NCBI RefSeq assembly: GCF_900107415.1
Contig: NZ_FNPX01000013.1
Span: 1 to 64,000 of the forward strand
DNA: 64,000 bases
Direction of reading: 5' to 3'
Origin: Jannaschia faecimaris
GTDB taxonomy: Bacteria; Pseudomonadota; Alphaproteobacteria; Rhodobacterales; Rhodobacteraceae
A program made the position numbers and the translations under genes. Positions 17,781-23,023 of the stretch are shown here, in pieces. The notes below the pieces were generated by a model. It did no database searches. It saw only the letters and a list, made by a program, of their open reading frames with translations, and had not been told where the DNA came from. The first letter of the stretch is position 1; each line of letters opens with the position of its first letter.

Positions 17781-18215
17781 ATGTTCAAGAAAATCCTGGT
17801 TTCTTTCGACGGATCGGATCACGCAGACCATGCGCTGCGTGTAGCTGCGGATCTTGCGCAGAAGTATCAGGCGAAACTGGAAATCGCGCATGTGCCAGAG
17901 GTCGAGACAACCGCGATCGCGATGGGCGCTGGCGCTGTGGAAATCCGTGTGCATGACGATGAAACAAAAAAGCGATCTCAAGAAACGCTCGCGCGGGCTG
18001 CCAGCATCGCTAAGGAAGCTGGTTGCGACTCCGCGTCTGCGCAGGCTCTTCAAGGCAGCCCGGCCGAGGCCATTCTGGCTCATGCAGAGAAGACGGGCAC
18101 CGATCTGATCGTGGCCGGACGCCGCGGCCTTGGAACATTGCAGGGCTTGCTGATGGGAAGTGTTTCACAAAAGCTGACGACCCACGCGCATTGCCCCGTG
18201 TTGACAGTCCACTAG
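17781..18215 (+). CDS. uspA: universal stress protein UspA family
   Basis: The 144-residue single-domain Usp has the start MFKKILVSFDGSDHADHALR and the ATP-binding loop VAGRRGLGTLQGLLMGSVSQ (G-2x-G-9x-G-S), so it should bind ATP. AAGGAG lies close upstream. A perfect FNR box precedes it, indicating oxygen-dependent control. No downstream gene shares the direction before the riboswitch-controlled operon 465 bases on. Confidence 0.93.
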   Translation: MFKKILVSFDGSDHADHALRVAADLAQKYQAKLEIAHVPEVETTAIAMGAGAVEIRVHDDETKKRSQETLARAASIAKEAGCDSASAQALQGSPAEAILAHAEKTGTDLIVAGRRGLGTLQGLLMGSVSQKLTTHAHCPVLTVH

Positions 18216-18500
18216 TGCACACCAGCGACAGTTTTACTTCTCATTGGCCCTTCCGAACAAATCTCGCTCCGAAGTCATCTCATGGCTTTGGGGCGGCGGC
18301 TATGAACAGCCCCGGTTGCCGTCAAGACGGGCCGTTAAATCCTATTACCGGGCGCGCGGATAACGTCGTCGATGTCGCCATGCTCTCAACTATAGGCAGC
18401 TTCGTTCTGTTTGCGTAAAAAACAGGCACTCCGCGGCTTTTTCATCCCTCACGATCAGAATGTTTTTGTACTGCGGTGCCAGAGTCCGGTTAATCAAGAT

Positions 18501-18608
18501 GCAGGATGTCTAGGGTTCCGCCTCATTGCAGGGTCTGGTCCAAGAGATATCACCGCTCGGCGAAAGACCGTGCGGTACACGGCGGGGCAAAATCCCGGGA
18601 GGCTACTG
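18501..18608 (+). ncRNA. guanidine-I riboswitch (ykkC class)
   Basis: The leader of the ABC transporter operon contains the conserved blocks of the guanidine-I aptamer in order: CTAGGGTTCCG (18510-18520), CTGGTCCAAGAGA (18535-18547), and ACACGGCGGGGCAAAATCCC followed by GGGAGGC (18578-18603). GCAG (18501-18504) and CTGC (18605-18608) can close the outer stem. Guanidinium binding normally turns on the downstream genes. The expression platform in 18609-18665 is not obvious, since no T-run terminator is visible, so control could act at translation. The aptamer lies 72 bases before the binding-protein start. I identify the motif by eye; a covariance search would confirm the limits. Confidence 0.9.
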
Positions 18609-18679
18609 CGCAGGTTTGGCCCGCGCTCCGTTTCTGCCCTGACGCGGTCATTCCATTCTTGAACTGATGGGGACCGAAA

Positions 18680-19726
18680 ATGAAAAATCTCACGACACTG
18701 ACCGCGATGGCCCTGTGCCTTGCTTCCACCGCCCACGCGCAAGAGAAGACCGACTTCCGGGTTGCTTGGTCGATCTACGTCGGCTGGATGCCATGGGGCT
18801 ATCTTGAAGACAGTGGCATCATGGACAAATGGGCCGACAAGTACGGCATCGACGTCGAGATCGTGCAGATCAACGATTACATCGAGTCGATAAACCAATA
18901 CACCGCCGGTGCATTTGACGGGGTGTCGGCCACGAACATGGACACGCTCTCGATCCCGTCTGGCGGCGGCGTGGACACCACGGCCCTCATCGTTGGGGAT
19001 TATTCCAACGGCAACGATGCCGTTATCCTAAAGGGCGAAGGCGATCTGACCAGCCTGGCAGGTAAGCCGGTGAACCTGGTCGAACTGTCGGTCTCGCATT
19101 ATCTGCTGGCACGCGGTCTGGACAGCGTGGGGCTCGCAGAATCCGATCTCGACGGCGTGATAAACACGTCCGACGCGGATATGATCGCGGCCTTTGCAAC
19201 CGACGACGTGGAAGCGGTCGTGACTTGGAACCCGCTGGTCTCTGCGATCATGGAAGGTCCATCGGCCAACATGCTGTTCGACAGCTCCGACATCCCGGGC
19301 GAGATCATTGACCTGATGGTCGTCAATACCGAAACGCTGGCCGCAAACCCAGACTTTGGCAAGGCGATGGTCGGGGCCTGGTACGAGGTTATGGGCCTGA
19401 TGGCGTCGGGCGATGAAGACGTGCTGACGGCCATGGCCGAAGCCTCGGGCACTGATCTGGCGGGATACCAGGCGCAGTTGGCCTCGACCGAGATGTTCTT
19501 TGACCCGGCCGCCGCCGTAAGCTTTACCGAAGGTACCGAATTGCCGGTAACCATGACCAGCGTGGCGGAGTTCCTGTTCGACAAGGGGATCCTGGGCGAA
19601 GGCGCGCCCTCGGCCGACTTCGTAGGCGTGGAATACCCCGATGGCACCGTCACGGGCGACGCCGGCAACGTCATGTTCCGTTATGACACGACCTATATGC
19701 AGATGGCCGCCGACGGCGCGCTGTGA
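18680..19726 (+). CDS. ABC transporter substrate-binding protein, probable guanidine binder
   Basis: The 348-residue protein starts with a signal peptide (residues 1-20, MKNLTTLTAMALCLASTAHA) and continues as an NrtA/SsuA/TauA-type periplasmic binding protein (TDFRVAWSIYVGWMPWGYLE). It is rich in acidic residues, and mature-domain motifs such as DGVSATNMDTLSIPSGGGVD are typical of this fold. Automatic annotation would call it nitrate, taurine or sulfonate binding. The guanidine-I riboswitch upstream and the GdmH-like hydrolase downstream make guanidinium the probable ligand. The permease follows after 44 bases. Confidence 0.85.
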   Translation: MKNLTTLTAMALCLASTAHAQEKTDFRVAWSIYVGWMPWGYLEDSGIMDKWADKYGIDVEIVQINDYIESINQYTAGAFDGVSATNMDTLSIPSGGGVDTTALIVGDYSNGNDAVILKGEGDLTSLAGKPVNLVELSVSHYLLARGLDSVGLAESDLDGVINTSDADMIAAFATDDVEAVVTWNPLVSAIMEGPSANMLFDSSDIPGEIIDLMVVNTETLAANPDFGKAMVGAWYEVMGLMASGDEDVLTAMAEASGTDLAGYQAQLASTEMFFDPAAAVSFTEGTELPVTMTSVAEFLFDKGILGEGAPSADFVGVEYPDGTVTGDAGNVMFRYDTTYMQMAADGAL

Positions 19727-19770
19727 ACTAGGGGAGAGGCCTGCCCCGGGATCGGGACGGGCCGCCTGTC

Positions 19771-20583
19771 ATGCGATTGATAAACATAAAGCCCGGCCGC
19801 CTTTTGGGCGTCGCCCTGATGCTTTTGCCATTCGTTGCAATCTTCGTGGCTTACGCCGTCGGGTCGGACATCCGGCTGACCGCAAATCCGGCAGACAAGC
19901 TGTTACCAGCCCCTCAAAAAGTCTGGGGGACGGCCATCCGCCTGATGACCGAAGCTGATCGGCGCAGCGGCGACATCCTGTTCTGGCAAGACACATGGGC
20001 CAGCCTGCAACGTCTTGCGCTTGGTATCGGGATATCCGCACTTGTCGGGTTGGTCTTCGGGCTGGCTATCGGACTGCTGCCAATGGCGCGCAGCCTGTTG
20101 GAGCAATTTGTTGCCGTGATCTCGATGATCCCGCCGCTGGCACTTCTCCCGATCCTGTTCATCGTTTTCGGGCTGGGGGAGTTGTCGAAAGTCGTCCTGA
20201 TCGTGGTGGGCACCCTGCCCTTCCTGATCCGCGACCTGTCCCAACGCGTGCTGGAAGTTCCGCAGGAACTGATCGTGAAAGCACAGACCCTGGGCGCGTC
20301 CAGCTGGGTCATCGCCATGCGCGTGGCCCTGCCGCAGTTGATGCCGCGTCTTATACAGGCGGTGCGCCTGTCGCTGGGTCCGGCCTGGCTGTTCCTGATC
20401 GCGGCCGAAGCCATCGCGGCTGACGCGGGGCTTGGCTATCGCATCTTCCTCGTGCGTCGCTATCTGGCGATGGATGTCATCCTGACTTATGTAATCTGGA
20501 TAACAATATTAGCCTTCATCATGGACCGCCTGCTGCGCCACCTGTCACGCCGTGCCTTTCCTTGGGCGGAGGACGGGATGTGA
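19771..20583 (+). CDS. ABC transporter permease, probable guanidine uptake
   Basis: The 270-residue protein has about six membrane helices and the BPD_transp_1 coupling loop VKAQTLGASSWVIAMRVALP (EAA-type motif). It is a SsuC/TauC-like permease. The stop overlaps the GTG start of the ATPase gene, so the two are coupled. It forms the membrane channel of the riboswitch-controlled transporter. Confidence 0.88.
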   Translation: MRLINIKPGRLLGVALMLLPFVAIFVAYAVGSDIRLTANPADKLLPAPQKVWGTAIRLMTEADRRSGDILFWQDTWASLQRLALGIGISALVGLVFGLAIGLLPMARSLLEQFVAVISMIPPLALLPILFIVFGLGELSKVVLIVVGTLPFLIRDLSQRVLEVPQELIVKAQTLGASSWVIAMRVALPQLMPRLIQAVRLSLGPAWLFLIAAEAIAADAGLGYRIFLVRRYLAMDVILTYVIWITILAFIMDRLLRHLSRRAFPWAEDGM

Positions 20584-21347
20584 GCTTTGTCACCGTCGCG
20601 AACCTGTTCCAGAGTTATGACCGCCGACCGATCCTGGAGCGCGTGAACGTATCGGTCGCAGAAGGGGAGTTCATCTCCATCGTGGGGGCCTCCGGCTGCG
20701 GGAAATCCACCTTCCTGCGCCTGCTCTTAGCGCAGGAGGAGCCCACCCGCGGCACCATTAGCATCGCCGGTGCCCCGCCGGCGCGCGAGCCAGGACTAGA
20801 TCGCGGCATCGTTTTTCAGCGTTATTCCGTTTTTCCACACATGACCGTTCGCGAGAATATCGTTGCTGGCGAAAGCCTGCGCCGGGGATGGGGCCGCTTC
20901 TGGGGGGCAGAGCGTCGCGCGGCATTGACCCGTGCGGACGAAACGCTGGCCCGCGTCGGACTGGATCACGTGGCGGGTCAGTACCCCGCCACCCTCTCGG
21001 GCGGGATGCAGCAGCGGCTGGCGATCGCCCAGGCCTTGATGGCACGGCCCAAGGTGCTGTTGCTGGACGAACCTTTCGGCGCGTTGGATCCAGGCACACG
21101 GCTTTCAATGCATGCGTTCTTGACCGATCTGCGGGCCGAGACCGGCATGACGGTGTTTATGGTCACCCATGACCTTGAGGAGGCGTTCAAACTGGGCGAC
21201 CGCGTGCTGGTTTTCGACAAGACCCGCTGGGACCCGCAGGATCCAAGCCTGAACGGGGCAACCATCACCTATGACTTCGATGCTCGCAATGGCGGCATCC
21301 CATTCCAGACACTTCAGGAGGAACTCGATGATCTTCAACCCGCGTGA
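20580..21347 (+). CDS. ABC transporter ATP-binding protein, probable guanidine uptake
   Basis: Read from the GTG at 20580, which overlaps the permease stop, the ATPase has 255 residues. It has Walker A GASGCGKST (36-44), a Q-loop in VFQRYSVFPH, the signature LSGGMQQRL, Walker B VLLLDEP and the switch His in MVTHDLEEAF. The C-terminus is longer than the minimal domain, with an unusual tail (PSLNGATITYDFDARNGGIP). The end of the gene overlaps the start of the hydrolase gene by 20 bases. Confidence 0.9.
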   Translation: MSFVTVANLFQSYDRRPILERVNVSVAEGEFISIVGASGCGKSTFLRLLLAQEEPTRGTISIAGAPPAREPGLDRGIVFQRYSVFPHMTVRENIVAGESLRRGWGRFWGAERRAALTRADETLARVGLDHVAGQYPATLSGGMQQRLAIAQALMARPKVLLLDEPFGALDPGTRLSMHAFLTDLRAETGMTVFMVTHDLEEAFKLGDRVLVFDKTRWDPQDPSLNGATITYDFDARNGGIPFQTLQEELDDLQPA

Positions 21348-22572
21348 CCGCAGCCGGTCCCACAACCCGCAGGACATGGGTGTCGATACCCGCCGCCACC
21401 ACCACCCCGACCTGAGCCAGTTGCGCGGCTGGAAGGCCATGCAGGCCGAGGCCGACATCCCCGGAAGCGGTTGGGAGCAGGAGAAGAAATGGGCCCTGCG
21501 CATGGGCCTGACGGGGGCCGACAGCATCGAGGACAAGTCGATCCCCACCTTCGCACGCGGCGAGCTGCCGCATTACGCGGGCATCAACACTTTCCTCAAG
21601 GCTCCTTACGCCGAAGACGTGACCGAGGTGGGCGACTACGATGCCACCGTACTGGGCGTTCCGTTTGACGGGGGCACGACCTACCGCGCGGGCACGCGCT
21701 TCGGGCCGCAGGGCGTGCGCAAGATCAGCGCGCTCTACACGCCCTACAACTACGAGATGGCGGTCGATCTGCGCGAGCAGATGACGCTGTGTGACGCGGG
21801 CGATGTCTTCACCATCCCCGCGAATATCGAGAAAACCTTCGATCAAGTCAGTCGCGCGGTCAGCCACGTCGCCTCATCGGGTTCCCTGCCGATCATGATC
21901 GGTGGCGATCACTCCATCGGCTTTCCCTGCGTGCGCGGTATCGCGCAATGCACGTCGAAAAAAATCGGGATCATTCACTTCGACCGCCACGCCGACATTC
22001 AGGAAAAGGACCTGGACGAGCGGATGCACACGACGCCGTGGTTCCACTCGACCAATCTTCCGAATGTTCCGGCCAAGAACCTTGTCCAGATCGGCATCGG
22101 CGGCTGGCAGGTGCCCCGCGACGCGGTGAAGGTCGCGCGCGACCGCGAGACGAACATCATCACCATGGGCGACATGGAGAAGATGGGTATCGACCGCACC
22201 GCCGAGATGGCGCTGGAAATGGCGTGGGACGGGGTCGACATGGTCTACCTTTCGTTCGACATCGACAGCATCGACTGCGGCTTCGTGCCGGGAACCGGCT
22301 GGCCCGAACCGGGCGGTTTCCTGCCGCGCGAAGCGTTGGGCCTTGTATCCCGCGTGGCCGCCGAAGGCATCTGCGGCATGGAACTTGTCGAAGTCGCACC
22401 GCCCTATGACCAGTCGGAGATTACGGCGCTGATGGGAACGCGCGTCATCGTGGACGTACTGGGAAGCCTTGTCGCATCGGGTAAAATGGGCGCGCACAAG
22501 CGGCACATGGACAAGCCCGTGACCATTCCCCACGGCGAATTCGAAGGAAAGCGGTGGTCCAATGCCACATGA
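21328..22572 (+). CDS. gdmH: guanidine hydrolase (GdmH-like, ureohydrolase superfamily)
   Basis: The 414-residue protein is of the arginase/agmatinase fold with all metal ligands: His195 in GGDHS, Asp219/His221/Asp223 in HFDRHAD, and Asp311/Asp313 in SFDIDSID. It differs from agmatinases in the HFDRHADIQEKDLDERMHT block and in GFVPGTGWPEPGGF, both hallmarks of the Ni-dependent guanidine hydrolase of cyanobacteria (GdmH, Synechocystis Sll1077), and it has the long N-terminal extension of that group. The reaction would be guanidine to urea plus ammonia in the cytoplasm. The ATG at 21328 has an AGGAGG 6 bases upstream; the frame also opens 19 codons earlier inside the ATPase gene. Its place behind a guanidine-I riboswitch and transporter strongly supports the call. 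Cyanobacterial GdmH depends on HypA/HypB-like nickel chaperones; here a His-rich protein follows instead. Confidence 0.88.
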   Translation: MIFNPRDRSRSHNPQDMGVDTRRHHHPDLSQLRGWKAMQAEADIPGSGWEQEKKWALRMGLTGADSIEDKSIPTFARGELPHYAGINTFLKAPYAEDVTEVGDYDATVLGVPFDGGTTYRAGTRFGPQGVRKISALYTPYNYEMAVDLREQMTLCDAGDVFTIPANIEKTFDQVSRAVSHVASSGSLPIMIGGDHSIGFPCVRGIAQCTSKKIGIIHFDRHADIQEKDLDERMHTTPWFHSTNLPNVPAKNLVQIGIGGWQVPRDAVKVARDRETNIITMGDMEKMGIDRTAEMALEMAWDGVDMVYLSFDIDSIDCGFVPGTGWPEPGGFLPREALGLVSRVAAEGICGMELVEVAPPYDQSEITALMGTRVIVDVLGSLVASGKMGAHKRHMDKPVTIPHGEFEGKRWSNAT

Positions 22573-23023
22573 TCACAGTCACGACCACGGGCACCGGCAC
22601 ACACACGACCACGGGCACATCGGCCATAACCATTCCCATGGCGATGCCGATCATCTGCACAGCCACATGCACGAAGCGGACGACGCCGCCGAACTTCAGG
22701 TCCTGACCGAGCAGTTCATCGAAGGCTTTGTCTCAGCCAAGGACAAAATGTCCTACCTGCGCATCGCCGGCGTGCCGCTTGAAATATCAGCGCCCGGTGG
22801 CGGGCCGTCGATGAAACTGGTGGATGTGAAGCTCACGACGGAATGGCAGGTCGGCACGGCCTCGCCTTCCTTCGGGTCGCGCGAACTCAGCTATCTGCCC
22901 TATCCCGGTGAAATGGTGACGGAGCGGACGAACATGGGCCTTGTCTATGTCTCGCTGGACGCGAAACAGGTCACCGACCTGCGCTCGTTCCTGCAAAGTC
23001 ACCCCGCCTCGCAAAGGGACTGA
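22562..23023 (+). CDS. His-rich protein, putative nickel-binding partner of the guanidine hydrolase
   Basis: The 153-residue product opens with alternating histidines: 16 of the first 37 residues are His (pattern H-x-H-x, beginning MPHDHSHDHGHRHTHDHGH). The rest (about 43-153) is a compact domain with no Cys, containing LQVLTEQFIEGFVSAKDKMS and PSFGSRELSYLPYPGEM. It does not match HypA, which has zinc cysteines, or HypB, which has a GTPase P-loop. The start overlaps the gdmH end by 11 bases, so production is coupled to the hydrolase. His tails of this type store or deliver Ni in HypB, SlyD and UreE. A Ni reservoir or insertion factor for GdmH is the likely role, by inference. I do not recognise the C-terminal family. 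Confidence 0.8.
   Translation: MPHDHSHDHGHRHTHDHGHIGHNHSHGDADHLHSHMHEADDAAELQVLTEQFIEGFVSAKDKMSYLRIAGVPLEISAPGGGPSMKLVDVKLTTEWQVGTASPSFGSRELSYLPYPGEMVTERTNMGLVYVSLDAKQVTDLRSFLQSHPASQRD

Follow-up and report, generated by a model that had tools for sequence, protein, structure and literature searches.

A riboswitch-controlled guanidine operon of Jannaschia faecimaris encodes a histidine-rich protein proposed to deliver nickel to GdmH

Results

Organization of the guanidine operon

We analyzed a stretch of 64,000 nucleotides (hereafter the window; positions 1 to 64,000 of contig NZ_FNPX01000013.1, assembly GCF_900107415.1) from Jannaschia faecimaris, an alphaproteobacterium of the family Rhodobacteraceae. 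It contains a Guanidine-I riboswitch followed on the same strand by the genes of an ATP-binding cassette (ABC) importer, by a gene for a predicted nickel-dependent guanidine hydrolase (GdmH) and by a gene for a small histidine-rich protein that we refer to as HISR. The features are as follows.

18499-18603, +: Guanidine-I (ykkC) riboswitch aptamer (RF00442, 78.9 bits, gathering threshold 63, model positions 1-107)
18645-18676, +: possible hairpin, speculatively an expression platform, that encloses the purine-rich ribosome-binding segment ahead of the first ATG
18680-19726, +: periplasmic substrate-binding protein, predicted to bind guanidine (TIGR03427, PF09084)
19771-20583, +: ABC permease (PF00528, 74.1 bits)
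20580-21347, +: ABC ATPase (PF00005, 119.6 bits); its GTG start overlaps the permease stop
21328-22572, +: GdmH, predicted Ni-dependent guanidine hydrolase, 414 amino acids (PF00491, 254 bits)
22562-23023, +: HISR, histidine-rich protein of 153 amino acids, proposed nickel-delivery protein for GdmH
22562-22573, +: N-terminus of HISR, MPHD, found in 84 of 100 profile matches (a count in which four places appear under two locus identifiers)
22574-22666, +: histidine-rich stretch of HISR, GHNH...DHLHSH, variable in length (30-member alignment)
22667-23020, +: C-terminal folded domain of HISR, predicted alpha/beta (AlphaFold2, pLDDT 90.7, pTM 0.76)

A previous sequence-only reading of this DNA had described the riboswitch and the five genes in series, the last four with overlapping ends, and our coordinates agree. 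With the starts chosen here, the overlaps are 4 nt (permease/ATPase), 20 nt (ATPase/GdmH) and 11 nt (GdmH/HISR); binding protein and permease are separated by a gap of 44 nt. The GTG at 20580 was chosen from the sequence as the start of the ATPase (the mechanical open reading frame begins with the TTG at 20562), and the ATG at 21328 was preferred to the listed start of GdmH at 21271 because an AGGAGG site lies upstream of that ATG.

The riboswitch is the sole Rfam match at the gathering threshold in the window, and its covariance-model score exceeds that threshold over the full aptamer. The downstream hairpin appears in both the minimum free energy and the centroid structure of a fold of 18499-18690, but the fold as a whole has a z-score of 0.24 and thus no statistical support. 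A scan for promoters and terminators gave counts no different from the shuffled level. The binding protein scored 512 bits against TIGR03427 (ABC_peri_uca; cut-off 333.9), an NCBIfam equivalog labelled “putative urea ABC transporter substrate-binding protein”, and it also matched the NMT1-like family PF09084.

The hydrolase resembles guanidinases

The signatures HFDRHAD and GTGWPEPGG, from which the hydrolase had been called a guanidine hydrolase rather than an agmatinase, are both present. The closest solved relatives are two guanidinases: the Synechocystis enzyme (7esr/7oi1, 550 bits) and that of Nitrospira inopinata (9fek, 544 bits) (PMC11410670; statements on the papers cited here and below refer to the parts of their text that were covered). 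The next ureohydrolase, 1gq6, scored 168 bits. Guanidinases require Thr105, His222 and Trp313 in N. inopinata numbering (PMC11410670), and in the alignment with 9fek their counterparts in the window protein are T118, H234 and W325; the numbers of this alignment run 2 higher than those of the paper, and H234, in DERMH, was counted from HFDRHAD at 217. The protein also falls below both NCBIfam agmatinase cut-offs, with 166.3 of 174.3 bits for TIGR01230 and 207.5 of 302 bits for NF002564. These data favor the predicted guanidine hydrolase over an agmatinase, and we infer that the enzyme would be active on guanidine. As a reading of the sequence, the assignment of the locus to guanidine sensing, import and hydrolysis has good support.

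Elsewhere, the host genome encodes two further PF00491 proteins. A search for urease genes had been proposed with the original assignment, and a urease alpha gene is indeed present.

HISR accompanies GdmH in all sampled alphaproteobacterial genomes that carry it

We sought the two genes in samples of 248 genomes of the family, 385 of the class and 398 of the phylum. GdmH was called with one query at E<=1e-60 in the family and E<=1e-90 in the class and phylum, so more distant GdmH could be missed; HISR was called in the class sample with a profile at E<=0.001. In the family sample GdmH was found in 36 genomes and HISR in 37, and all 36 GdmH genomes have HISR. In 35 of the 36 the two genes share contig and strand, with no more than about 0.6 kb between them; in the other (G098) they are at the ends of two contigs. 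The class sample gave GdmH in 11 genomes and HISR in 13, namely the same 11 and two more. Seven genomes of the phylum sample have GdmH, all of them Alphaproteobacteria, and the four not seen before all have HISR. Linkage is therefore strict: the three samples hold 36 + 10 + 4 = 50 distinct alphaproteobacterial genomes with GdmH, and HISR is present in 50 of 50.

Plasmids and named genomes gave a similar picture. GdmH-like genes occur in 11 plasmid records, and HISR stands beside GdmH in all seven of the alphaproteobacterial ones, five of which are from Sinorhizobium fredii. Searching with HISR by tblastn recovered only three of these seven, compared with seven of seven for profiles run on the neighborhoods, so plain tblastn misses the HISR of Hyphomicrobiales; the pairing persists down to 21% identity, on a plasmid from that order. 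From named genomes, 80 HISR loci were kept of 183 relatives found. GdmH lies upstream in 79 of them, and the 80th starts 35 bases from a contig end. The whole gene order is shared by 73 of the 80, which argues against a chance arrangement. A long open frame at one locus (L170) was considered as a GdmH-HISR fusion and rejected, as the coordinates put HISR in a different frame.

Three genomes have a piece of HISR and no GdmH: one of the 212 family genomes without GdmH (G159) and the two additional genomes of the class sample (G609 and G371). G159 has a HISR match of 26 residues only, with a riboswitch and a short binding-protein-like start that runs into the HISR piece. In G609 a partial binding protein continues into HISR and a Guanidine-I riboswitch is present, and G371 has a piece of the HISR domain with no other part of the operon. 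We rejected these as independent uses of HISR, as they look like operon remnants; assembly faults are also possible. The three loci are L204:5519-6535, L205:6290-6595 and L203:6104-6355, and in two of them the riboswitch and the start of the binding protein are joined directly to HISR, which would fit a deletion of the central part of the operon or a collapsed assembly.

HISR follows the enzyme and not the importer

The binding protein occurs in 43 of the 248 family genomes, namely the 36 with GdmH and seven without a GdmH match. In two of the seven (G175 and G046), two proteins of DUF1989, the family used for carboxyguanidine deiminase (PMC11410670), come after riboswitch and importer, together with a Guanidine-II riboswitch. 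Another (G022) combines the importer with a carboxylase of the urea/guanidine type (TIGR02712, 1736 bits) and a urea-amidolyase-associated protein, and G216 has the importer with allophanate hydrolase. HISR is absent from all four of these carboxylase-route importer loci. As for the other three, no other operon gene was found near the binding-protein gene of G193, and G118 and G207 are uninformative because their loci run off the contig, in G207 within GdmH.

On the other hand, in G704 (L176:4793-6855) riboswitch, GdmH and HISR stand together without an adjoining importer. Since four importer operons lack HISR and G704 has it without an importer, HISR follows GdmH rather than the importer. The importer and the hydrolase pair are also separable, as in G127 (contig C1:661353-673516), where some 10 kb separate GdmH and HISR from the binding-protein gene, which is on the opposite strand.

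HypA is rare in genomes with GdmH

GdmH of Synechocystis is encoded with nickel-delivery proteins that are required for its activity (PMC12186494). Metformin hydrolase, a relative of GdmH, likewise depends on co-expression of HypA and HypB (PMC11399263), which it needs in vivo (PMC11271267). We found HypA above its cut-off in nine of the 36 family genomes with GdmH and not in the other 27, absence being weaker evidence in the five of the 36 that are less than 90% complete; a tenth genome (G052) has a weak partial match below the cut-off. All nine HypA-positive genomes have a [NiFe]-hydrogenase large subunit, which accounts for their HypA. The host genome gave no match to HypA. The search for HypB covered the host genome alone, where all matches to its model are below the cut-off, and the better of them is probably UreG, as it lies 3 kb from the urease alpha gene. 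Because HypA is rare and linked to hydrogenase, we suggest that HISR stands in place of the HypA/HypB-like proteins GhaA/GhaB in most of these GdmH genomes.

HISR combines a conserved N-terminus, a histidine-rich stretch and a domain outside known families

The window HISR has 17 histidines and no cysteine among its 153 residues. The sequence-only reading had listed a His-rich protein, and the gene is there, but its standing as the unusual part of the operon was overlooked. Annotated plasmid records label HISR “hypothetical protein”. Against Pfam (E<=1) it gave nothing but a chance-level match to a viral movement protein (E 0.044, below the cut-off), against NCBIfam (E<=0.1) it gave no match, and a scan of 43 rows of the domain alignment yielded only two isolated weak matches, in one member each (E 0.072 and 0.007).

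If HISR does serve a nickel enzyme, it is like UreE and HypA in being a small protein with such a role, and UreE often ends in a histidine-rich sequence; in sequence, however, it matches neither family. PF01155 (HypA) was found neither in the window protein (E<=1) nor in the 43 domain rows (E<=0.1), and the cysteine zinc site of HypA has no counterpart in a protein without cysteine. With 153 residues and no match to a GTPase family, HISR also lacks the P-loop GTPase domain of HypB and UreG, and no UreE model of Pfam or NCBIfam matched it.

Across 30 aligned members, HISR starts invariantly with MPHD, continues with a histidine-rich stretch whose length varies and which includes GHNH and DHLHSH, and closes with a C-terminal domain that is well conserved. 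The MPHD start overlaps the GdmH gene in 57 of the 73 loci measured and lies clear of it in 16, so MPHD is more than a by-product of gene overlap. Several distant members start with MHDD, MHRG, MHGG or VHDA instead. Methionine is usually removed before proline, and the nickel-binding end of HypA is MHE. Given the usual removal, mature HISR ends would be PHD or MHx, with histidine second, and the N-terminus should be the metal end of the protein.

The histidine-rich stretch is far less constant. L165, L167 and L168 have few histidines and retain MPHD and the domain, the stretch being almost absent from L168, while other members have a long stretch or a histidine-rich C-terminal tail (L009 and L204). 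This comparison suggests that terminus and domain form the core of HISR and that the stretch is a tunable nickel buffer. The AlphaFold2 model of the domain matched no solved fold, and the invariant columns of the 43-row alignment include no histidine and no cysteine, for which reason we read it as a putative docking or recognition domain and not as a metal site.

Discussion

A model for nickel delivery to GdmH

Our model for this operon, which we hold with moderate confidence, combines riboswitch-driven import and GdmH-catalyzed hydrolysis of guanidine with delivery of nickel to GdmH by HISR. A guanidine-responsive riboswitch would switch on a single transcript, the ABC importer would carry guanidinium into the cell, and GdmH would cleave it to urea and ammonia; the urease of the cell would then complete the breakdown, making guanidine a nitrogen source. 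The N-terminal histidine region of HISR, which would start with PHD once the first methionine is removed, would bind Ni2+, with the GHNH...DHLHSH stretch as a nickel buffer, and the C-terminal domain would dock on GdmH as the metal is passed on. HISR would thereby do the job of cyanobacterial GhaA/GhaB without a GTPase. Judging from genome context, HISR is probably a dedicated nickel-delivery protein that replaces HypA/HypB.

Several observations weigh against this model. Nickel binding by HISR and its contact with GdmH are candidate roles that have genome context as their basis, its folded domain has no conserved histidine or cysteine ligand and a model unlike anything solved, and the HISR of L168 nearly lacks the histidine stretch. 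The conservation of MPHD may in part be caused by its overlap with the GdmH stop. None of the four actinobacterial plasmid loci with GdmH-like genes has HISR, and the comammox guanidinase is active although no chaperone is known for it, its loading mechanism being called unclear (PMC11410670); together these indicate that GdmH can obtain nickel in other ways. The metal chaperones of metformin hydrolase are not needed in cell extracts (PMC11271267), and the nickel chaperones of urease could be alternative suppliers of GdmH.

One could suppose that HISR stores or detoxifies nickel, acting as a small histidine-rich buffer that raises local nickel without touching GdmH. The highly variable length of the stretch and its C-terminal position in L009 and L204 are what a buffer would predict, but the C-terminal domain is far better conserved than the stretch, the low-histidine members keep domain and MPHD, and a pure buffer would have no need to go with the same enzyme in every one of 50 genomes; we regard this explanation as unlikely. 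We would give about as little weight to the view that the GdmH hexamer includes HISR as a small subunit, structural or for assembly, in which the histidines are secondary. It would account for the linkage and the translational overlap, and the related metformin hydrolase does need a second subunit (PMC11399263); however, the N. inopinata guanidinase, said to resemble the Synechocystis enzyme, is a homohexamer active without such a subunit (PMC11410670).

It could also be speculated that the cellular substrate of the hydrolase is another small guanidino compound such as methylguanidine, guanidine being only a side substrate. With a Km for guanidine of 13.6 mM, the N. inopinata enzyme prompted its authors to consider this possibility; the riboswitch, though, is described as highly specific for guanidine (PMC11410670), and the required Thr, His and Trp and the two guanidinases as nearest solved relatives make another substrate very improbable. 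We see even less reason to believe that HISR and GdmH are linked by shared operon inheritance only, HISR serving the importer, urease or something else. Most copies do lie in one syntenic operon (73/80), but the four carboxylase-route importer operons do without HISR, G704 keeps HISR without an adjoining importer, and the pairing is retained at 21% identity on the Hyphomicrobiales plasmid.

A bolder form of the nickel-delivery model, for which we judge the chances a little short of even, is that HISR is the first member of a novel kind of nickel metallochaperone. In this reading one protein, working without a GTPase, would carry the metal on its N-terminus (mature PHD, with MH in distant members) and histidine stretch and recognize the guanidinase through a domain of novel fold, and it would have taken over from HypA/HypB independently across the Alphaproteobacteria.

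Relation to known guanidine systems

A dedicated importer linked to GdmH had been called little described in Alphaproteobacteria. The open literature that we searched did not yield an alphaproteobacterial version, but the combination itself is known from Synechocystis (PMC12186494) and marine picocyanobacteria (PMC10119275). The operon of Synechocystis PCC 6803 (sll1077 GdmH, GhaA/GhaB and an ABC importer) has the same riboswitch, importer, GdmH and nickel accessory function (PMC12186494, PMC8390497); it encodes HypA and HypB homologues where the window operon has one unrelated histidine-rich protein. The picocyanobacterial speB2 cluster shares the ykkC riboswitch, a guanidinase and a TauABC-like importer and differs in its hypA/hypB homologues and, often, a Rieske protein; HISR is not mentioned in the parts of that paper covered (PMC10119275). 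The comammox Nitrospira locus also joins Guanidine-I to a guanidinase and has no HypA/HypB nearby, but it uses an APC permease instead of an ABC importer, and no dedicated nickel protein was found in it (PMC11410670). Within the family of J. faecimaris, the carboxylase operons L208:5223-8113 and L209:3493-6386 have Guanidine-I before an importer of the same family; they differ in the Guanidine-II riboswitch and DUF1989 pair that follow the importer, and they contain neither GdmH nor HISR. Riboswitch, importer and GdmH together are thus already known, and HISR is the unexpected part.

We found no description of HISR or of the Rhodobacteraceae operon in the open literature searched, although the primary GdmH paper lay outside this search and may hold an earlier mention. 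The comammox study found no chaperone for a guanidinase without HypA/HypB nearby (PMC11410670). With its position in the chaperone's place in 36 of the 248 family genomes, HISR is a directly testable candidate, and it could serve as a simple co-expression partner for obtaining fully nickel-loaded guanidinase. The operon also makes guanidine a likely source of nitrogen in Rhodobacteraceae, a use on which the same literature contained no report.

Riboswitches and other genes at related loci

Of the 73 named full operons, 12 were examined for Guanidine-I, and 11 of them have it, L141 being the exception; it was also found in six of ten loci of the class and phylum samples. L164, L166 and L170 gave no Guanidine-I match at the gathering score, and L167 is cut by a contig end; the riboswitch is present at both L177 and L178. 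On a plasmid of Rubrobacter indicoceani (L180:4798-11167), Guanidine-I, a GdmH-like gene, a sodium:solute symporter and urease genes occur together without HISR, and the symporter is perhaps another type of guanidine importer. In the window itself, a gene for a universal stress protein (PF00582, 111 bits) lies just 5' of the riboswitch, at 17781-18215.

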